A DNA stretch of 64,000 nucleotides from assembly GCF_011067745.1 (NCBI RefSeq), contig NZ_JAAMPJ010000015.1:92281-156280 (forward strand), given 5' to 3'. The stretch comes from Lentzea alba. Lineage in GTDB: Bacteria; Actinomycetota; Actinomycetes; Mycobacteriales; Pseudonocardiaceae. A program made the position numbers and the translations under genes. This document shows positions 3,658-59,762 of this stretch, in pieces (position 1 is the stretch's first letter; each line of letters begins with the position of its first letter). The notes beneath the pieces are model-generated. The model did no database searches, was not told the origin of the DNA, and saw only the letters and a program-made list of their open reading frames with translations.

Positions 3658-4745
3658 TGAGTCGAAAGTGATCATCTTCCGACAAGTTGATCACTTGTGA
3701 TCGAGGTCGAGGGTGCGCACCGGTTATCGCCTGCGGAGCGTGAGGTGCTGCGGTTGCGGGTGGTGGCCGCGTTGGAGTCCGGTCGGGTCGAGGGCTATCG
3801 GCGGGCCGCCGAAGTGTTCGGAGTCTCCGAACGGTCGGTGGGCACCTGGTGGCGGGGCCTACCGGCGGGACGGTCGCGACGGCCTGGCGACCCGCAAGGG
3901 GCGTCCCGGCCCTGCCGAACTGATCAGCGCGGAGGACCGGGGCACGTTGTTCGCGGCGATGGCCGACTACACCCCCGGGGAACTGCTGATCGGCGGCCCG
4001 ATGTGGACCCGCCAGGCGGTGGTCGAGCTGATCCGGCTGGTCGGGGTCGCCATGACCGAGCAGGGCGTCGGTTTGTGGCTGCGCCGCCACGGGTTCACCC
4101 TGCAACGCCCGGCCCGATGCGCCTACGAACAGCAGCCCGCCGCGGTGCGCGCGTGGCTGGACGAGCAGTACCCGGCGATCGAGACCAGGGCGAAGGCCGA
4201 GGGCGCCGCGATCGCGTGGGTCGACCAGTGCGGGCTGCGCTCCGACGCAGCACCGCCGGGCCGGTCCTGGGCGCCGAAGGGCCGAACGCCGATCGTGCGG
4301 GTGACCGGCAAACGGCTGCGGGTCAACGTCATGTCCGCCGTCGCCTCACGCGGCGCGCTGTGGTTCACCGTGTTCACCGAACGCTTCACCGCCACCGTGT
4401 TCACCGCGTTCCTCGATCGCGTCGCCCGCCAGGTACACATCATCGCAGACCGGCACCCGGTGCACCGCAGCAAGGCCGTCCGCGCCTGGCTGGAGACCAA
4501 CGCCGACCGGGTCGAATTGCACCTGATGCCCGGCTACAGCCCCGAACTCAACCCCGACGAACTGCTCAACGCCGACCTCAAACGCAACGTCAACGCCTCA
4601 CGAGCCCACACCGTCGACCGCCTCGCCCACCAAACCCGCCGCTTCCTACGTCGCCGCCAATGCCAACCGCACATCGTCCGCAGCTACTTCCAGACTCGCC
4701 ACGTCCGCTACGCCATCATGTAGGCAACCGAACACTTTCGGCTCA
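3658..4745 (+). mobile_element. IS630-family insertion sequence
   Basis: Imperfect terminal inverted repeats bound the element: TGAGTCGAAAGTGATC at 3658 and GAACACTTTCGGCTCA ending at 4745 (14 of 16 positions match as inverted repeats). TA dinucleotides lie just outside both ends, which fits the TA target preference of IS630. One transposase gene fills it. Confidence 0.75.
3697..4723 (+). pseudogene. IS630-family transposase, two frames joined by a +1 shift
   Basis: The N-terminal helix-turn-helix region (LSPAEREVLRLRVVAALESG ... AAEVFGVSERSVGTWWR) is in the frame opening at 3697. The DDE catalytic part (IAWVDQCGLRSD, IIADRHPVHRSKAV, GYSPELNPDELLNADLK) is in the frame ending at 4723. The frames switch at the GGGG in TGGCGGGGCCTAC near 3857. 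Removing one G restores WWRAYRRDGRDGLATRKG. This is either a disabling insertion or a programmed frameshift, which some IS630 members use. Length and motifs are otherwise complete. Confidence 0.8.
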
Positions 4746-4767
4746 ATAGAAGTAGTCGAAAAATGAA

Positions 4768-4803
4768 TTACCCCACGGGATTATGATGAATCCCGTGGGG
4801 TAA
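4768..4803. repeat. 15-bp perfect hairpin repeat, copy 1
   Basis: TTACCCCACGGGATT (4768-4782) pairs exactly with AATCCCGTGGGGTAA (4789-4803) around a 6-base loop. A second copy with the same TTACCCCACGGG stem and a shared downstream TGTCCGAG...TTGAGCT stretch lies at 52877. Both sit next to mobile-element debris. Confidence 0.7.
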
Positions 4804-4967
4804 GAGAATGTCCGAGGGGACTTGAGCTCCCACGCGTAGCAAGCGTGCGCGGTTTGTGTGTTCACGCGCTATTGGATAGCTCGAACCTAGTATAGAGGGC
4901 CAGTCGACACGATTCAATCTTTCGCCGCTAAGTTCTGTCGAATGGGGCCAAGAATTTTCGCGGCGAC

Positions 4968-5215
4968 CTGTTGGACCGCACGCTGATCTGGGATCAGGCC
5001 CATCTGCGGCAAGGGCTGCGTGAGTACGAGCGGCACTACAACGAGCACCGAACCCACCAATCACTCGCTGGCGCGACACCACGAGTACCGCCATGTGTCT
5101 TAACCTGCATGGACGTAGTTTTCGGCACGCACAGAGTACTCGGCGGCTTGATCAGCGAGTACGAACCTGCGGCGGCCTGATACGCAGGTCAGCCCCATCA
5201 GTCAGTGTTTTGGTA
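4968..5215 (+). mobile_element. 3' part of an rve-integrase transposase with element right end
   Basis: About 70 codons ending at 5180 read LDRTLIWDQAHLRQGLREYE, then HYNEHRTHQSLAGATPRVPP, then LGGLISEYEPAAA. This is the typical C-terminus of IS3/IS481-like integrase-core transposases. The catalytic region is missing. About 35 bases after the stop run to ACCCCGCAGG and recur at 52025-52072, so the element end is probably near 5215. Confidence 0.7.
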
Positions 5216-9378: not shown

Positions 9379-10586
9379 TCACCGGGAGCCGAGCGTGGAT
9401 GCGGCCGCGAGGCGGGTGCCCTGTCGCCAGACCGCGCGAATCGACAGGCTGTCGTTGATGGTCGTGGTGGGATCACCGTCGACCAGGACGAGATCTGCCC
9501 GCAGGCCTTGCTCGACGCGGCCCGATCGTGGAGGCCGAACCGTCGTGCTGTCAGTGAAGTCGCCGAGCGCAGGGCTTCGGCGGGGCTGAAACCGGCCTGT
9601 ACGAACAGTTGCAGCTCGCCGTGCAGACTTGCCCCGTGGGTCACGCCGCGCACGGTCAGAGCCGCGGCGTCGGTGCCTGCGATCACGTCGACCCCAGCCT
9701 GGCGCAGGGCTGCGATCGTGGCCAGTGCCATGTCGAAGTGCGAGGCGGGCAAGGCGCCGAACGTGTCGGAGAGGTGCGCCCGCAATTCCGGCGAAAGCTT
9801 TTCCGCAACGCGGGGATCCTGCGCCAGGTCCGTGCTGTGCGACAGCCCGACGAGGGAGGCAAGGGGGGTCAGTGTCGGCACCACGAACACGTTCGCGCTT
9901 GCGATGCGGTCGACGATCTCCGGGGTGTGGGCCGTGTCGGCGAACAGATGGGCGAGGCCGTCGACGCCGGCGTCGACCATCTGTTCGGTCTCGTGCAGCG
10001 TCATGGCGTGGGCCATCACCATCTTCCCGCGAGCGTGCGCCTCGGCGATCACGGCGGCGTGAATCTCCAGTGGTACGTGCGGCAGCTGGAAGCCGAACGC
10101 CCCGCCACTCTCGGCTATCACCTTGATGTAGTCGGCGCCCTCGCTGATCCGGTCGTCGACGAACCCGGCCGCCTCCGCCACGGTGGTCGCGGTCGGCCAG
10201 ACCGGATCGTTGAGGCCCTTCCGGAACCGATGAGGGTGGCCGTCGAGGTGGGTGAGCGAAAAGGAGGCGCTCCGCACGTCCGCGAAAGTCCGGTCGGCCT
10301 CGACCTCGGCGCGCAGCGGAATCATGGTGGCGGGCACCGAGCCCATGTCGAGCTCGGTGGTGACGCCGAAGGTCAGCGCCTGGCGCAGCATCGAGGCATC
10401 TGTGTGGGTGTGTGCGTCGATCAGGCCCGGCAGCAGGGTTGCGCCGATGGCGTCGACGACTTCCACCCCGGTGACCCGCGGCCCGCCCACCGAGACGATG
10501 ACGCCGTCGGCGACGTGCACGTCGACCTGGCCCAGGTTCTTCTCGCCGTCGAACACCTTCGCGCCGACGATGACGAACTCGTTGAT
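9379..10586 (-). pseudogene. Amidohydrolase (imidazolonepropionase/prolidase-like), frameshifted, start codon lost
   Basis: A metal-dependent amidohydrolase with VVDAIGATLLPGLIDAHTHT (HxH metal ligands), KVIAESGG, MAHAMT, GLAHLFADT and VIAGTDAAAL motifs. The frame reading TSLTARRFGLHDR breaks at 9520-9528. The natural C-terminus VEQGLRADLVLVDGDPTTTI ...GSR-stop is in another frame, so one base is missing. The expected start, right after GCGAGGAGAG, reads ATC AAC GAG TTC at 10586 where ATG would be expected. An in-frame ATG at 10631 lacks a good ribosome site. Related enzymes act on cyclic amides or dipeptides. It lies inside the repeat-bounded block of the catabolic cluster. Confidence 0.7.
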
Positions 10587-10683
10587 CGGACTCTCCTCGC
10601 AATGCTGGACATGTACTGGGTAGGGCTTCACTGCTCACGCGCGCGACGGCGACCCAACGGGGGCCCTTCCGGACAGACTGGGC

Positions 10684-11628
10684 CTACCGGCCCCGTCGTG
10701 CGGGTGGGATGGGAATCGGCTCGACTCCTGGCACGACGCGGGTCGTCAGGGTGCCGAGTTGTTCGACGGTGACGGTGACGACGTCGCCGGGTTGCAGGGG
10801 GCGGTGGGCGTTCAGGCCTTCGCGACCCCACAGTTCGGCGAGGCAGCCGCCGCCGCAGGTGCCGGAGCCGAGGACGTCGCCCGGGCGGATCTCGGCGCCA
10901 CGGGAGGCGTAGGCGATCATGTCGGCGTAGGAGAACGCCATGGACGACCAGCGGTCCTGCCCCAGCCGTTCGCCGTTGATCTCGACGGTCATCGTCAGGC
11001 CGAACGAGGTGTCGGTGCGCCAGGGTTGCAGCTCGTCGGGGGTGACCAGGACCGGTCCGAGGGTGGTGGCGGTGTCCTTGCCCTTGGTGGGGCCGAGCCG
11101 GACCTGCATCTCGGCGAACTGGACGTCGCGGGCCGACCAGTCGACGAGGATGGTGTAGCCGGCGACGTAGGCGTCGGCGTCGTCGGGGTGGATGTCGCGG
11201 CCGGTGCGGCCGATGACGGCGGCGACCTCCAGCTCCAGGTCGAACATCCGGCTGCCGGGCGGTACGGGGACGTCGTCGGCGGGGCCGAGGATCGCGTAGG
11301 GGTTGGTGAAGTAGAACGCGGGTGCCTCGTACCAGCGTTCGGGGACGGTCGCGTCGGTTCCGCCGAGTCTGGCGACACCTTCGACGTGCCGTTCGAAGGT
11401 CATGAAGTCCCGCACGGCGGGAGGATCGGGGATCGGCGCACGCAGCCGAAGGTCGCCGACTGCCAGGGTCGGGGCAGGTGCGGCCAGGGCCTGCTCCCCG
11501 GCCTCCCGCAGGGTGCCGTCGCGCAGGAGGCCGAGCATCGTGACGCCGCGACCCAGGGGATGGACCTGGTCGTGGTGGAGGACGCCGACCCGATCACCGT
11601 CGTCGTCGGCGTAGGTCACGAATCGCAC
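10684..11628 (-). CDS. Fumarylacetoacetate hydrolase family protein (second copy, intact)
   Basis: The 314-residue product is a complete FAH-fold hydrolase or isomerase. Visible family blocks are FYFTNPYAILG, MFDLELEVAAVIGRTGRDI (metal-binding acidic residues), GYTILVDWSARDVQFAEMQV, LGPTKGKDTATTLGP, ASRGAEIRPGDVLGSGTCG and a C-terminal PGVEPIPIPPAR. Such enzymes cleave 2,4-dioxo acids after aromatic ring opening. The GTG at 11628 follows AGGGAAGC, 14 bases after the MBL gene, so the two are probably cotranscribed. It shares the architecture of the broken copy at 8440 but is clearly diverged from it. Confidence 0.88.
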   Translation of the reverse strand: MRFVTYADDDGDRVGVLHHDQVHPLGRGVTMLGLLRDGTLREAGEQALAAPAPTLAVGDLRLRAPIPDPPAVRDFMTFERHVEGVARLGGTDATVPERWYEAPAFYFTNPYAILGPADDVPVPPGSRMFDLELEVAAVIGRTGRDIHPDDADAYVAGYTILVDWSARDVQFAEMQVRLGPTKGKDTATTLGPVLVTPDELQPWRTDTSFGLTMTVEINGERLGQDRWSSMAFSYADMIAYASRGAEIRPGDVLGSGTCGGGCLAELWGREGLNAHRPLQPGDVVTVTVEQLGTLTTRVVPGVEPIPIPPARRGR

Positions 11629-11642
11629 AGTCGCGCTTCCCT

Positions 11643-12602
11643 TCAGACGGAGGTGTGCATCGGGCGGCCGAGCCAGGCGATCGCGTCCCCGAAGGCGGCG
11701 ATCGGGTCGAGGTCCCGGCCGGCGTGGTCGGCGTAGACGCGGTGCAGGTTGAGCACGATTCGTTCGGCGTCGGCCCAGCCCGTGAACTCGCCCAGGTCGA
11801 CCTGGCGGGCGGCCTGCAGGGGCGTCAGACCCTGGGAGAGCCCGTCCTGGGCGATGTCGAGGATGAGCCGGTAGTAGCGGCGGTGCTCGTCCAGGACCCG
11901 GGTGATGTCGGCGCCGGTGAGGACCGGGCCGTGGCCGGGGACGACGACGTCGGGTTGCAGGGACTCCAGCCAGTCGACCGCGGCGAGGGCCCCGTCCACC
12001 GAGCCCATGAAGACCAGCGGGGTGAGTCCGGCGAACACCAGATCGCCGGCGAACAGTACGCGTTCTTCGGGCAGCCAGGCGATCAGATCTCCACTGGTGT
12101 GCGCCGGGCGGCCGGGGTGCAGCAGCTCGATCCGCCGACCTGCGACGTGCAGGGTGAGTGCGGAGCCGACCGAGATGTCGGGGAGCCTGCGGGTCACCGG
12201 CCCCCAGTCCGGGACCGGGTTCCACAGCGGCGGGCAGCCGTCGATGACCGGGTCGGCCTGAAGCCCTTCCCGCATCCGGCTGTGCCCGACGATCACTGTC
12301 GTGGAGGGGAGGAGGCTGTTGCCGTAGGTGTGGTCACCGTGCTGGTGGGTGTTCACCGCCAGCCTGACGGGCGCCCCGCCGGTGGCCGTGTCCACGGCGT
12401 CGAGAAACCGGCGGGTGCGGGCCGCGGTGGCACAGGTGTCGATCACCAGGACCCCGTCGTCGCCGGCCACCACGCCTGCGTTGTTGACCCACCAGGTCCC
12501 GTCCGGCTGCACCCAGGCGTGGATCCCGGGGAGCAACTCCTGGAGTTCCGCCGCGTCCGCTGTGGGAGGAGGAGCGGAGTTCGTGTCCGGGGTGTCGGTC
12601 AT
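11643..12602 (-). CDS. MBL-fold metallo-hydrolase
   Basis: A 319-residue metallo-beta-lactamase-fold protein with the zinc motif NTHQHGDHTYGN, a later AHTSGD histidine/aspartate pair, AGDLVF and the C-terminal VPGHGP. The SoxH-like or quinoprotein-relay-like subgroup is likely. The start ATG at 12602 overlaps by four bases (ATGA) the stop of a 25-codon FAH stub, so its translation may be coupled to that stub. Its role in the cluster may be lactone or ester hydrolysis of a ring-cleavage product. That is inference from position. Confidence 0.83.
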   Translation of the reverse strand: MTDTPDTNSAPPPTADAAELQELLPGIHAWVQPDGTWWVNNAGVVAGDDGVLVIDTCATAARTRRFLDAVDTATGGAPVRLAVNTHQHGDHTYGNSLLPSTTVIVGHSRMREGLQADPVIDGCPPLWNPVPDWGPVTRRLPDISVGSALTLHVAGRRIELLHPGRPAHTSGDLIAWLPEERVLFAGDLVFAGLTPLVFMGSVDGALAAVDWLESLQPDVVVPGHGPVLTGADITRVLDEHRRYYRLILDIAQDGLSQGLTPLQAARQVDLGEFTGWADAERIVLNLHRVYADHAGRDLDPIAAFGDAIAWLGRPMHTSV

Positions 12603-12676
12603 GACCCGGCCTGTCCGTCGTCCTTCACGGTGGCGACGCGGCTGCGACCGTGCTGTTCGTAGGTGGCGAAACGCAT
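12599..12676 (-). pseudogene. 25-codon stub of an FAH gene, translationally coupled to the MBL gene
   Basis: The ATG at 12676 opens MRFATYEQHGRSRVATV, identical to the start of the FAH gene at 9234, then diverges to KDDGQAGS and stops. The TGA shares ATGA with the MBL start. It keeps the FAH ribosome site (CAGGACTGCC). It is a relic of recombination but may now act as a leader ORF. Confidence 0.65.
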
Positions 12677-12788
12677 GGCAGTCCTAGGTAGCTGGGCGAG
12701 TTGGCATTGACCGGGGGCGCGGCGGCACGTCAGGGCCGGACAGTTCGCCGCCCCCCGGATCGCGGGGTCAGACCGGCGGAGCGACGAA
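12616..12788. repeat. 173-bp direct repeat, copy B (FAH start / dioxygenase end junction)
   Basis: Matches 9176-9346 with a few changes and small indels. Here the left-reading dioxygenase is complete up to the junction, and the FAH gene is cut after 17 shared codons. The two copies enclose the MBL, FAH and amidohydrolase genes. Confidence 0.85.
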
Positions 12789-37677: not shown

Positions 37678-37707
37678 GATGGGGCACCGCCCGAGCGGTG
37701 CCCCATC
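37678..37707 (-). terminator. 13-bp-stem terminator of the esterase gene
   Basis: GATGGGGCACCGC (37678-37690) and GCGGTGCCCCATC (37695-37707) form a perfect stem with a 4-base loop, 11 bases past the stop of the leftward gene ending at 37718. It separates this gene from the GH43 gene. Confidence 0.7.
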
Positions 37708-48879: not shown

Positions 48880-49125
48880 GCTACCTTAACCAGGGCCGCG
48901 CCGAAGGGGACCGCCCCGTCACGACCGCCCGCCACGCCAGCCTTCTCATACTCACCAAACCCGAGAACCTGTGTCCGAAGGACACGGCTCTGCTGGAGAA
49001 GATCGCCGCGTCCTGCCCGGAGATGACCGCACTCGCCAACCTGGTATCCGGCTTCGCCGCCCTGCTGAAACCGGCCGCGGGCAACGACGTGAAACTCACC
49101 GAGTGGATCGCGGCGGTCGAACTGG
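48880..49125 (+). mobile_element. Internal fragment of an ISL3-family transposase
   Basis: The frame reads HASLLILTKPENLCPKDTAL, LEKIAASCPEMTALANLVSG, FAALLKPAAGNDVKLTEWIA. This matches the central to C-terminal region of ISL3 transposases (TRPENL...CPEMTAL). It breaks at about 49125 in the same frame into a serine recombinase. Confidence 0.65.
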
Positions 49126-49784
49126 ACAGTCCGGTCCACCAAGCGCTGATGGTCTTGCTCGGTGCGCAGGCTCAGCGGGAGGTGGCCCGTGCCCGGCAGC
49201 GCGTGCTCGGGGCGATGCGGGCGCAGACCAGTCAGCAGGGCAGGTTCCTCGGCGGCCGTCCGCCTTATGGGTATCGCCTGGTCGATGGTGGTCCGCATCC
49301 GAATGCGCGGCATAGTGGGTGGGGTCGGAGGTTGCAGTGCTGGCGCCGGATCCTGTGACCGCGCCGTGGGTGCGGTGGATGTTTCGGGAGCGTGCGGGTG
49401 GTCGTGCGCTGGCCTCGATCGTCCGCGAGCTGAATAGTCGTGGTGTGCCGTGTCCGTCGAGTGCGGATCCGGGACGCAACTCGCATAGGACGGGCGGGCG
49501 GTGGATGGTGACCGCGGTCGCGGCGATTCTCGAGAACCCGCGTTACACGGGCCGGCAGGTGTGGAATCGGCATGGCACGCGGGGGAGGGGACCTGGAGGC
49601 CGGCTGGGGCTCGTGCCGCGGGCCGGGTGACCCGCAACCCGGTCACGGTGTGGGAGGTGTCGGAGAAACTCTCGCATGAGCCTCTGGTCGACGATGAGAC
49701 CTTCGTGGCGGTTCATCGGATCAGGGCACCGAGACAGACCAAGGATGGCGGGGCACGCAGATATGCGTTGGCTGGTCTGGTCGT
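49126..49784 (+). pseudogene. Large serine recombinase fragment, copy 1 (frameshifted)
   Basis: It reads SPVHQALMVLLGAQAQREVA, GRFLGGRPPYGYRLVDGGPH, then after a frameshift near 49320 APDPVTAPWVRWMFRERAGG and WMVTAVAAILENPRYTGRQV. After another shift near 49605 it reads VTRNPVTVWEVSEKLSHEPL. This is the recombinase-domain part of an actinobacterial site-specific recombinase. The catalytic resolvase domain is missing. It ends in a joined integrase fragment. Confidence 0.75.
49343..49784. repeat. 442-bp direct repeat, copy 1
   Basis: Nearly identical to 52073-52515 in recombinase sequence. The pair encloses 2.3 kb with the ECF42/DGPF genes. Differences are scattered substitutions and a one-base indel near 49605. 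Confidence 0.85.
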
Positions 49785-49905
49785 ATGTGTTGGACGGCAC
49801 GCTGACGCGGAATCAGGCCCATCTGTGGCAAGCGCCGCATGGGTACGAGCAGCAATACAACGAGCACCGTACCCACCGATCACTCGCTGGCGGACACCCC
49901 TGGGG
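49785..49905 (+). mobile_element. rve-integrase C-terminal fragment
   Basis: The frame reads LDGTLTRNQAHLWQAPHGYE, QQYNEHRTHRSLAGGHPWG. It is homologous to LDRTLIWDQAHLRQGLREYE at 4968 and joins directly to the recombinase fragment. No element end was recognised downstream. Confidence 0.65.
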
Positions 49906-51973: not shown

Positions 51974-52072
51974 GTCGCCGACGAGTGCTGGGTGGCATGA
52001 TCAACGAGTACGAATCTGCGGCAGCTTGATGCACAGGTCAGGCCCATTGGGCCGTGTTTGGGGACCCCGCAG
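51974..52072 (+). mobile_element. Right end of an rve-integrase element
   Basis: GTGCTGGGTGGCATGATCAA onward encodes the transposase tail (LGGMINEYESAAA-stop in a neighbouring frame sense), homologous to 5144-5180. The next 45 bases to GACCCCGCAGG match 5181-5215. The element end truncates recombinase copy 2 at 52073. Confidence 0.65.
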
Positions 52073-52515
52073 GCGCCGGATCCTGTCACCGCGCCGTGGG
52101 TGCGGTGGATGTTCCGGGAGCGTGCGGATGGTCGTGCGCTGGCGTCGATCGCCCGCGAGCTGAATAGTCGTGGTGTCCCGTGCCCGTCGAGTGCAGATCC
52201 GCGACGCAACTCGCATAGGACGGGCGCGCGGTGGATGGTGACCGCGGTCGCGGCTATCCTCGAGAACCCGCGTTACACAGGCAGGCAAGTGTGGAATCGG
52301 CATGGCACGCGGGGAAGGGGACCTGGAGGCCGGCGGGGTGGTCGTGCCGCGGGCCGGGTGACCCGCAACCCGGTCACGGCGTGGGAGGTGTCCCAAAAGC
52401 TCTCGCATGAGCCTCTGGTCGACGATGAGACCTTCGTGGCGGTGCATCGGATCAGAGCGCCGAGGCAGACCAAGGACGGCGGGGCACGCAGATATGCGTT
52501 GGCTGGTCTGGTCGT
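52073..52515. repeat. 443-bp direct repeat, copy 2
   Basis: Partner of 49343-49784. Copy 2 keeps one reading frame through the region where copy 1 is shifted. Confidence 0.85.
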
Positions 52516-52873
52516 GTGTGGGGTGTGTGACCGCAGGATGGACGCTCACTGGGTGCACGACCGACCTTCCTACCGCTGCCGCCACGGCTTCAACAGCGTG
52601 TCGACCCGGCCTCCGGACGCGCCGGCCAACACCTACGTCCGCGAGGACGTCGTCCTCCAGATGCTCCCAGGACTGATCACTGAGCGCGGGCACAATCCGG
52701 AGTCTGATTTAGCAGTGCAACTCCATGAATTACGGCTAGAAATCACCTGCGTAGGGTCTGGTCTGAGATTAAGAACCTGGCCGACCAGTCGAAATCCCGC
52801 GCGAACTCAACGTGCAACGCAAGCGGCGTTAGCATTGGATTGGGGATCGGGGGCGCCAGAAGTGCCTATATAA
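52073..52873 (+). pseudogene. Large serine recombinase fragment, copy 2
   Basis: An open frame reads APDPVTAPWVRWMFRERADG through WEVSQKLSHEPLVDDETFVA and the zinc-ribbon VCGVCDRRMDAHWVHDRPSY. It lacks the N-terminal resolvase domain, cut by an integrase element end. Its C-terminus drifts into unfamiliar sequence after HNPESDLAVQLHELRL. It has no proper start. Confidence 0.75.
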
Positions 52874-52876
52874 AGC

Positions 52877-52913
52877 AATTACCCCACGGGGAAATTGCTC
52901 CCGTGGGGTAATT
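52877..52913. repeat. 14-bp perfect hairpin repeat, copy 2
   Basis: AATTACCCCACGGG (52877-52890) pairs with CCCGTGGGGTAATT (52900-52913). The TTACCCCACGGG stem, and after it a GTCCGAG and a TTGAGCT, are shared with the hairpin at 4768. The next 240 bases to the glyoxalase gene hold nothing recognised. Confidence 0.7.
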
Positions 52914-53157
52914 CCGTGTCCGAGACATTTGAGCTGCGATGCTTTGCCGATGCGGGCAGCTTCGACGCCGCCGACCTCTTGAGATGGTCAGCAGCCATGC
53001 CGCCAACGTTTGTCCGGCACCGCAACACAGGACAATCACGAAGGCAGCCATCGCGACTCGGCGGTAGCAGCCCGAGACAGGTGACCATTTCGATGGGACG
53101 AGTCGGGCAGCCTCCAGGCCGTGCACCCGCAGACAGGGTTCGCAACCCGCAGCGTGG

Positions 53158-56041: not shown

Positions 56042-56995
56042 GTGATCGTGTCTCTGCTGTACAAGGTGACATGGAAGATGCTGTCCGCCGCGTCGGTGCT
56101 GCTCCGCGGTGAGGCGGCGAAGGATGCGGAGCTGCTTGTGCTGCGGCACGAGAACACCGTGCTCCGTCGGCAGCTGGCCGGCCCGGTCCGCTACGAGCCA
56201 GCGGACCGATTCTGGTTCGCGGCCCTGTCCAGGCTGATACCTCGTTCGCGCTGGCGCGAGGTTTTCTCAGTCACGCCCGGCACGGTGCTGGGCTGGCATC
56301 GCAGGTTCATCGCCTGGAAGTGGGACTACACCACGCGACGACGCACCGGACGTCCACCCAGCCGAGCAGCAATCAAGGCAATCGTGCTGCGGCTCGCAGC
56401 AGAGAACCCGCGGTGGGGGACATCGACGGATCCAGGGCGAGCTGGCTCGACTCGGCCACCGGATCGCCGCCTCGACCGTCTGGGAGATCTTGAACGCCGC
56501 GGGAATCGGCCCGGTACCACGTAGATCCGGCCCATCCTGGCGCGAATTTCTCTCCGCCCAAGCAGAGGGCATCATCGCTGCAGACTTCGTCCACATCGAC
56601 ACCTCACTCGGCACACGCCTGTGCGCCTTGGTGTTCCTCGAACACGGCACCAGACGCCTGCACACCACCGGCGTGACTACCCACCCGACGCAGGCCTGGG
56701 CTGTTCAGCAAGCCAGGAACCTCGCCACCGACCTCGGGACGCGGATGGAGTCCCTGCGCTTCCTGCTACGCGACCGCGACGGCAAATGCGGCAAGACGTT
56801 CGACACTGTCTTCGAGGCCGAGGAACTGCGGGTGATCACAAGTGCGCCTCAAGCGCCCCGGATGAATGCACACTGCGAACGGGCCATCGGCACTCTGCGA
56901 CGCGAACTGCTCGACCACGTCCTGATCACCAGCGAAGCCCACGCACGGCACGTCCTCAAGGCCTACCAAGAGCACTACAACCGACACAGACCCAT
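56042..56995 (+). mobile_element. rve-integrase transposase, frameshifted and 3'-truncated
   Basis: The GTG at 56042 opens VIVSLLYKVTWKMLSAASVL and then AAKDAELLVLRHENTVLRRQ. A frameshift near 56413 separates ENPRWG from HRRIQGELARLGHRIAASTV. The DDE core follows: AADFVHIDTSLGTRLCALVF (D), LLRDRDGKCGKTFDTVFEAE (D), MNAHCERAIGTLRRELLDHV (E). Homology stops at EHYNRHRP near 56995, where the antisense XRE gene ends. The element is therefore non-autonomous. An N-terminal relative is at 32610. Confidence 0.8.
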
Positions 56996-58315
56996 ACTGT
57001 CGAGCAGTTCTGCGAATCTGCTGCCCAGGCGGGTGCGGAGCCTGCTGAGTTCGTGGCGGATGGGGGTGGCCGGAGCCGATGTCACCGCCGCCATCACCGG
57101 CCGTGCGAGCTCCACGGCGGCGTCGAGGTCGCCTCGGCACGCGTGGCTGTCGGCCAGGCGCAGGGTCAGCATGAGCCTGCTGCCGTGCATCCGGGCGGGC
57201 ACGTTCGCCAGTGATGTCTCCGCGTGCATCACCGCGCGGTCGGCGATCACCGATCGGCCGGTGACCTCTGCCAGGTCGCGCAGTCCGCCGGCCAGGTGCG
57301 AGGCGATGTAGGTCGCGCCCGCCGCTCCGATCAGCCACGGCGCCTCGATGCGGTCCCGGCCGTCAAACTGGTCGACAGCTCGTTGCGCGGCCCTCGACAA
57401 CCTGGAGAACTCCCGATGGTCACCGAGCATGGCGTGCGCGCGGGCCTGGATCAGTTGCGCGTGCACGCCCGTCCACAGGCGGCTGGGGTCCACCGCGGAC
57501 GCGGCGGCGCTGTAGTCGAGCGCGGTCGCCGCGTCGCCTTCGATCATGGCGAGCACGCCCATGCTGCTCAGCGCCTCACAGGCCGTTGCGACGCCACCGG
57601 AAGCCAGCGCCCACTCGACGCCGCGGTGCAGCCATGTCATGGCAATTCCGTGCTGCCCTCGTTTCACCCGGAGCCATCCGGCCAGGTCGGCGTACCTGGC
57701 GGCGAGTTGTAGCAGGCCGTTCGCGTGGACGCCCCGCGCCATCGGCACCAGGGTCGTGAGGGTGCGCAACGCCCGTTCGACAGGAACAGCGAGGTCACCG
57801 GCGACTTCGCTGATGTCGGCGTCGAGGTAGGTCGTCAGCAGCGCGGCGAATCCGTGCAGTGTCTCGGCACCCACGGTGAGCCCATCGACACCGGGCACCT
57901 CCGCGAGGCCGCCGGGCACCGGCGCCGCGCAGCCGTTGATGCCGTGCGAGGGGCAGGTGACGCCGAACGCCGGCAACCGGACGTACCGGGTGAGCGAGGG
58001 CCGAAGCTGGTCAGCACCATGTGGTGCTCGGGGCAACGGGACCGAGGCCTCCCCGGCGGAGGCGACGAGTCCAGCGCACAGCCGCGCACGGATCCTCGTC
58101 GCCACGGCGAGCAGCGAGCCGCCCGCTGCCAGCAGATCGTCGGCCTTGTCGGCGAACGCGATCCGCGGCTCCCGTGCGCCGCTCTCGATCTTGGAGACGT
58201 AGGAGTGGTGATAGCCGAGGCGCGCAGCCAGCTGGACCTGAGTGAGACCTGCCTGCTCACGCAGGCGGCGCAGTTCCTGCCCGAACTCGTTCCGGCCTGA
58301 TTCCTCGTGCGTCAT
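56975..58315 (-). CDS. XRE-family regulator with TPR-like C-terminal domain, 3' end altered
   Basis: The 446-residue protein has an HTH in residues 10-65 (LRRLREQAGLTQVQLAARLG, YHHSYVSKIESGAREPRIAF). A roughly 380-residue helical region follows with repeats such as AIEG/ADL/ALDYSAAASAVDP and RLWTGVHAQLIQARAHAMLG, the layout of actinomycete developmental or antibiotic-cluster regulators. The last residues SMGLCRL are encoded by transposase sequence, so the natural end was probably removed by the insertion. The ATG at 58315 is set by the HTH. Upstream codons extend without a ribosome site. Confidence 0.82.
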   Translation of the reverse strand: MTHEESGRNEFGQELRRLREQAGLTQVQLAARLGYHHSYVSKIESGAREPRIAFADKADDLLAAGGSLLAVATRIRARLCAGLVASAGEASVPLPRAPHGADQLRPSLTRYVRLPAFGVTCPSHGINGCAAPVPGGLAEVPGVDGLTVGAETLHGFAALLTTYLDADISEVAGDLAVPVERALRTLTTLVPMARGVHANGLLQLAARYADLAGWLRVKRGQHGIAMTWLHRGVEWALASGGVATACEALSSMGVLAMIEGDAATALDYSAAASAVDPSRLWTGVHAQLIQARAHAMLGDHREFSRLSRAAQRAVDQFDGRDRIEAPWLIGAAGATYIASHLAGGLRDLAEVTGRSVIADRAVMHAETSLANVPARMHGSRLMLTLRLADSHACRGDLDAAVELARPVMAAVTSAPATPIRHELSRLRTRLGSRFAELLDSMGLCRL

Positions 58316-59661: not shown

Positions 59662-59684
59662 TCCTCGGCTGCGTGACGGCGGCC

Positions 59685-59717
59685 GGAGTGCGCGGTCCAC
59701 AGGAGACCGCGCACTCC
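59685..59717 (+). terminator. 13-bp-stem terminator of GH16
   Basis: GGAGTGCGCGGTC (59685-59697) and GACCGCGCACTCC (59705-59717) pair perfectly with a 7-base loop, 24 bases past the GH16 stop. Confidence 0.7.
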
Positions 59718-59762
59718 GATGGCCGGCAGGAATCCAGGTGACGACACCCCGACCTCGCGGAG

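Follow-up and report, generated by a model that had tools for sequence, protein, structure and literature searches.

Two hairpins with a common flank

Why does one stretch of a Lentzea genome carry two distant copies of a perfect hairpin, each followed by the same short flank? The window, by which we mean the whole analyzed stretch of 64,000 nucleotides, corresponds to positions C7:92281-156280 (contig C7) of a 10.2-Mb genome. The first-pass annotation had reported two matching hairpins with perfect arms and loops of 6 and 9 nt, and both the coordinates and the stems were borne out:

4768 to 4803, strand unassigned: hairpin copy 1, 15-bp perfect stem and 6-nt loop, terminator-like on the minus strand
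52877 to 52913, strand unassigned: hairpin copy 2, 14-bp perfect stem and 9-nt loop

The flank said to follow each copy, TGTCCGAG and a TTGAGCT stretch, was likewise present, at 4809-4828 and 52917-52935. In the 64-kb window, the 12-mer arm TTACCCCACGGG is present in just four exact copies, which are the arms of both hairpins. With up to two mismatches allowed, the window gave 5 matches versus 5.6 expected; thus, it is solely the exact arms that stand out. At five places, the window has a perfect palindrome of at least 12 bp (loop 3-10), compared with none in five first-order Markov resamplings. In the folding test against shuffled sequences (minus strand), copy 1 reached a z of -6.4 and copy 2 a z of -5.4, and none of the 200 shuffles equaled either. 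The Rfam scan of the window returned no match above the family gathering score, and a known RNA family was dropped as an explanation for the hairpin. Other perfect palindromes of 13-14 bp lie at 1568-1598, 37678-37707, and 59684-59718; they are perhaps ordinary terminators.

Further copies in the genome and the genus

The first-pass annotation had made its proposal depend on further copies in related genomes, and these are present. A 12-bp stem pattern matched 8 of the 24 genomes of the genus (reversed control, 0), and a search of 84,980 species genomes, a collection that may leave out the window's own genome, resulted in 10 matching stretches, all from Lentzea and representing six species. 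Within the host genome, a 9-bp stem pattern was found at five exact places, all on C7 (one for the pattern read backwards). Additionally, a query with the tRNA side of the site described below retrieved a diverged hairpin copy on contig C32, and the motif search revealed a decayed site at C7:43680. The C7 sites number six, all on the same strand and 18 to 144 kb apart; one tRNA gene hit by repeated insertion would leave such a same-strand series. A viral scan with the 9-bp stem matched 36 contigs. We inspected 32 of these contexts, the other 4 being passed over by a duplicate filter; TGTCCGAG was absent from the 30 nt displayed for each, and a phage origin was dropped.

The flank as the 3' end of a tRNA-Leu gene

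On sequence grounds, the TGTCCGAG...TTGAGCT flank is the decayed 3' end of a tRNA-Leu gene. At three loci of relatives (L060, L063, and L066), the TGTCCGAG flank runs on into an intact tRNA-Leu on the opposite strand, with the hairpin abutting the gene, and ARAGORN called tRNA-Leu(GAG) at these three of the 15 loci scanned. The stretch TGTCCGAGGGGGGACTTGAACCCCCAC is the complement of the tRNA-Leu 3' end and T arm, which are decayed in the window. Based on the flank sequence and on the relatives with an intact tRNA, two features were assigned:

4809 to 4828, minus strand: decayed tRNA-Leu 3' end (att core), copy 1
52917 to 52935, minus strand: decayed tRNA-Leu 3' end (att core), copy 2

The site lies 3' of tRNA-Leu and faces the gene in all 12 cases that could be placed on the same contig, at distances from 6 nt to 130 kb, some of the positions being recombinase ends and not the site itself. 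A scan of C7 for tRNA-Leu found none on the contig, so the tie of the window array to a tRNA gene is presumed. In the relatives, a recombinase gene stands beside an intact tRNA gene and tRNA 3' fragments lie at other junctions, as in tRNA-targeting islands.

The G run of the core comprises six bases in the intact tRNA and falls to none at array junctions, for example TGTCCGAGACTTGAG in L004. At L093, the tRNA-Leu locus of genome G016, tandem tRNA 3' ends 48 nt apart lie behind a single tRNA-Leu gene. A second sequence type to the right of the core (near GAGTTGCACACTATCCAC) occurs in L200, L224, L239, L242, and at C7:339217, in several genera, and is perhaps another far-end arm.

The serine recombinase side

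The hairpins had also been described as lying beside mobile-element debris, and the domain scans agree. The features upstream of the two copies are as follows:

3713 to 4723, plus strand: transposase with DDE_3 and HTH_33 domains (Pfam scan), occupying the place expected for the recombinase body
4749 to 4766, plus strand: last codons and stop of a recombinase gene, upstream of copy 1, by comparison with aligned recombinase ends (match from 4750)
49038 to 49806, plus strand: broken, frameshifted recombinase piece (similarity)
52058 to 52873, plus strand: C-terminal half of a serine recombinase with Recombinase and Zn_ribbon_recom domains (domain scan), stop codon at 52871-52873

The stem begins 1 nt past the stop codon in copy 1 and 3 nt past it in copy 2, where the recombinase half shows 57% identity. 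The sequence after the frameshifted piece is similar to the IS debris behind copy 1, and a piece of an Integrase-core (rve_3) transposase lies at 56490-57311.

In relatives, the gene upstream of the hairpin encodes a serine recombinase with Resolvase, Recombinase, and Zn_ribbon_recom domains. All three were found in the L116 and L117 proteins (486 aa each), the window recombinase at copy 2 having only the latter two. By their domains, the island recombinases are large serine recombinases, for which attP x attB activity is predicted. A hairpin, perfect or not, and the tRNA-derived core follow all 23 distinct recombinase 3' ends listed, a listing that kept only matches reaching query residue 70 or later and in which part of the loci had originally been fetched via the hairpin pattern; one base of the core is changed in L116, L120, and L192. 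The loci fetched by protein or tRNA similarity (L104, L120, and L183-L190) have the same layout with more variation. Relatives of the recombinase (E 1e-50) were found in 84 of 200 genomes of the family, and tRNA-Leu(GAG) adjoins them at 5 of 25 loci in the family search and at 17 of 25 in the order search.

At nine Lentzea loci (L085, L089, L096, L098, L103, L106, L107, L111, and L112), an open frame enters the tRNA-Leu gene. There, the tRNA 3' end encodes the last residues (VRGGT, once VREGT) and the stop, and a lineage-specific palindrome lies near the frame end. Three of these nine frames were scanned, and the recombinase domains were present.

A model of the island junction

Since each copy has a tRNA-Leu flank on one side and a recombinase stop on the other, we regard it as the att-site junction of a serine-recombinase island. 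Of the identities proposed earlier for the hairpins, element end and recombination target were accordingly upheld in this form. We are fairly confident that the hairpins are the recombinase-side ends of islands at the 3' end of tRNA-Leu(GAG), where they most likely supply a replacement terminator.

According to this model, a serine recombinase would insert a genomic island at the tRNA-Leu(GAG) 3' end. The junctions run from the recombinase gene over a few bases to the hairpin, and from there through a spacer of 5 nt to TGTCCGAGGGG..ACTTGA, which is the tRNA 3' end on the opposite strand; beyond the core lies an intact tRNA-Leu at some junctions and the putative far end of a second island at others. 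The insertion would leave the tRNA 3' end intact and cut the tRNA off from its earlier downstream sequence. A palindrome that the island places straight behind the tRNA would then end tRNA-Leu transcription and spare the recombinase gene antisense read-through.

The window copies appear to be old junctions of an accretion array that have lost their mobility, given that nothing but the final recombinase codons is left at copy 1 and nothing but the C-terminal half at copy 2. About 150 bp to the right of the core are common to several junctions, including window copy 1, two in L118, and two in L113. We interpret this shared stretch as an island's far end; its position in the window was assigned by similarity:

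4822 to 4969, plus strand: putative far end of a neighboring island (shared arm, about 150 bp, 85% identical to the query)

At locus L118, a 17.6-kb island of the same array carries as cargo a protein with a caspase domain, matched as a caspase by PADLOC as well, together with a TPR-CHAT protein (617-1291 and 9803-12757).

Constraint on the stem

The first-pass annotation had taken the perfect arms with differing loops as a sign of selection on structure, and we ran the covariation test it had suggested. In an alignment of 24 copies, 94.5% of the cells of the 16-pair stem are paired and six pairs are changed on both sides, values that none of 500 shuffles reached for either measure. When the stem partner was slid, 35-53% were paired. 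Four inner pairs are replaced in L185 and one outer pair in L183, with pairing kept in both. The claim is thus supported by two-sided changes that preserve pairing, with the qualification that sliding the partner by -1 lowers the covariation score only from 0.096, the value for the true stem, to 0.093. The 24 rows are without L188, which escaped the search pattern, and include L116 with its 5' arm misaligned. The copies and their flanks are related by descent; therefore, these tests rest on non-independent events.

Hairpins behind tRNA-Leu

The genus-wide comparison of tRNA-Leu flanks bears on what the structure would do. The 24 genomes of the genus gave 48 tRNA-Leu matches, of which one was truncated at the end of a contig, and their 3' flanks comprised 44 distinct sequences. 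A hairpin score of at least 10 within 85 nt was found in 41 of them, versus 2.8% of 1500 background windows from the same loci. In a count of perfect stems made before mismatch-tolerant scoring, 22 of the 44 flanks had at least 10 bp (background 1.7%). The 8 nt behind the stem contain 3.7 T on the tRNA strand and 1.8 on the other strand (Wilcoxon p 2.8e-6; background 1.3). Some flanks have fewer than 8 nt in front of the stem, which brings the other-strand count down. The palindromes behind tRNA-Leu vary in sequence by lineage.

Among loci mostly of other genera, 22 were given and 15 parsed (L196, L199, L202, L209, L259, L265, and L267 are uncounted): only 7 of the 15 flanks scored at least 10 and 11 at least 8 (background 2.3% and 9.7%), with T counts of 3.8 versus 1.9 (p 0.012). 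In the window, the terminator scan called copy 1 terminator-like on the tRNA (minus) strand. Copy 2, with its loop of 9 nt, was not called by the consensus scan, which accepts loops of at most 8. Many Lentzea copies are followed by the tail TTCATATTTC, which is without a clean T run.

We predict that the hairpin is most likely an island-borne terminator for tRNA-Leu. The simplest reading of the flanks is that tRNA-Leu needs a terminator behind the gene and that each island supplies one.

A possible double role of the inner arm

The inner arm of the hairpin is part of a motif with a second candidate role. It occurs in both copies (motif search):

4797 to 4816 (C7:97077-97096), plus strand: GGGGTAA-N5-TGTCCGAG motif, copy 1, proposed recombinase half-site
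52905 to 52924 (C7:145185-145204), plus strand: GGGGTAA-N5-TGTCCGAG motif, copy 2

Of the 200 family genomes searched for GGGGTAA-N3-7-TGTCCGAG, 34 contained it, with 51 matches in total versus one for the reversed control, and the spacer was exactly 5 nt in 42 of the 51. A recombinase lies upstream at 24 of the 34 distinct motif sites read; 13 of the 34 came from loci fetched with the recombinase itself, and counting only the motif-fetched sites the figure is 11 of 21. A complementary outer arm (score of at least 10) is present at 16 of 17 Lentzea motif sites. Outside Lentzea, the outer-arm score was at least 8 at 8 of 29 sites and below 8 at 21 (random 95th percentile, 7). Because the inner arm recurs across genera even where a complementary outer arm is absent, GGGGTAA may double as part of the recombinase half-site. 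In the outer 9 bases of the 24 copies, the inner (3') arm shows 2 changes; the 5' arm shows 8, with the rearranged copy L116 contributing three. From this pattern, it seems that the recombinase holds the inner arm in place and pairing holds the outer arm.

The fixed distance of GGGGTAA from the core, its presence without a complementary arm, and the better conservation of the 3' arm would all fit a palindrome that is a recognition element of the recombinase only, its arms being inverted outer half-site motifs (TTACCCC / GGGGTAA) with no role in transcription. However, other lineages have unrelated palindromes in the same spot with T-rich tails on the tRNA strand, and the inner stem of L185 has changed with pairing kept, so that we consider recognition alone unlikely. 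As an extension of the terminator reading, we give about even weight to one att palindrome with two jobs: the inner arm would be the outer part of the half-site, and the complementary outer arm would complete the replacement terminator. The unrelated palindromes of other lineages would then serve the same need, some of them within a recombinase frame whose stop is supplied by the tRNA.

A terminator native to the tRNA-Leu genes of the genus, and copied at each insertion, would also explain a hairpin directly behind tRNA-Leu in three relatives. This seems very improbable to us: the hairpin is tied to one recombinase family, many other tRNA-Leu flanks of the genus differ, and the two tRNA-Leu genes of the host are each followed by hairpins of other sequence, which indicates that this hairpin came with the island.

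REP / RAYT elements are dispersed copies linked to a RAYT transposase. A self-spreading REP-like or IS-borne hairpin unit, which the first-pass annotation had considered and which several similar hairpins with a transposase nearby might suggest, is scarcely credible, as the five exact genome copies all lie on one contig, placed not in a scatter but after genes of a single serine recombinase family and facing tRNA-Leu or its remnant with the tRNA-derived core (12 of the 12 placeable sites). For the same reason, neither a REP / RAYT element nor the end of a known IS was retained, the DDE_3 transposase at copy 1 being a separate neighbor and the hairpin going with the serine recombinase and the tRNA core (23 of 23 listed ends).

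Relation to known systems

Tyrosine integrases classically insert at tRNA genes. The serine recombinases found here stand repeatedly beside tRNA-Leu(GAG) in Lentzea, in the family, and in the order, and so offer a ready set of att half-sites. Islands of serine recombinases at RNA genes are a kind already known, of which the proposed double role of the hairpin would be a variant. Among the PMC papers searched, none was found to describe a tRNA terminator that an island carries at its serine att site; the term "tRNA" does not occur in the available text of PMC4111918, nor in the available main text of PMC10083194.

Passages of PMC3218068 describe eight serine recombinases of Mycobacterium AICEs in one tRNA-Leu gene and call such integration rare. 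By this description, the AICEs resemble the Lentzea islands in the serine recombinase, the integration in tRNA-Leu, and the actinobacterial host. AICEs carry replication and transfer genes (PMC3218068); a scan of 10 proteins taken from two Lentzea islands turned up no member of a replication or FtsK-type transfer family.

The closest architecture is that of the tandem ssrA islands of Dehalococcoides with the serine recombinase DsiB, as outlined in parts of PMC3146451. These share with the Lentzea islands a recombinase located where the island ends, a structured-RNA gene whose 3' end is the insertion site, and the tandem arrangement, and the DsiB frame extends into the att site, a feature also of other Lentzea lineages. 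The target in Dehalococcoides differs, being tmRNA, and a term search of the main text of PMC3146451 found no mention of an inverted repeat.

Insertion of ICEKp1 at the 3' end of tRNA-Asn displaces the tRNA terminator, according to passages of PMC13023037. The int gene of ICEKp1 is described there as co-oriented with the tRNA and using its promoter, whereas the Lentzea recombinase gene converges on the tRNA with the hairpin in between. Should the palindrome prove to be a replacement terminator, it would show how an island can reduce what its entry into a tRNA gene costs, in contrast to ICEKp1, which exploits the loss of the terminator. The Lentzea hairpin, called terminator-like at copy 1 and not called at copy 2, resembles intrinsic terminators in its GC-rich stem, short loop, and T-rich tail on the tRNA strand, and unlike them in being borne by a mobile element and in overlapping a conserved motif beside the att core.
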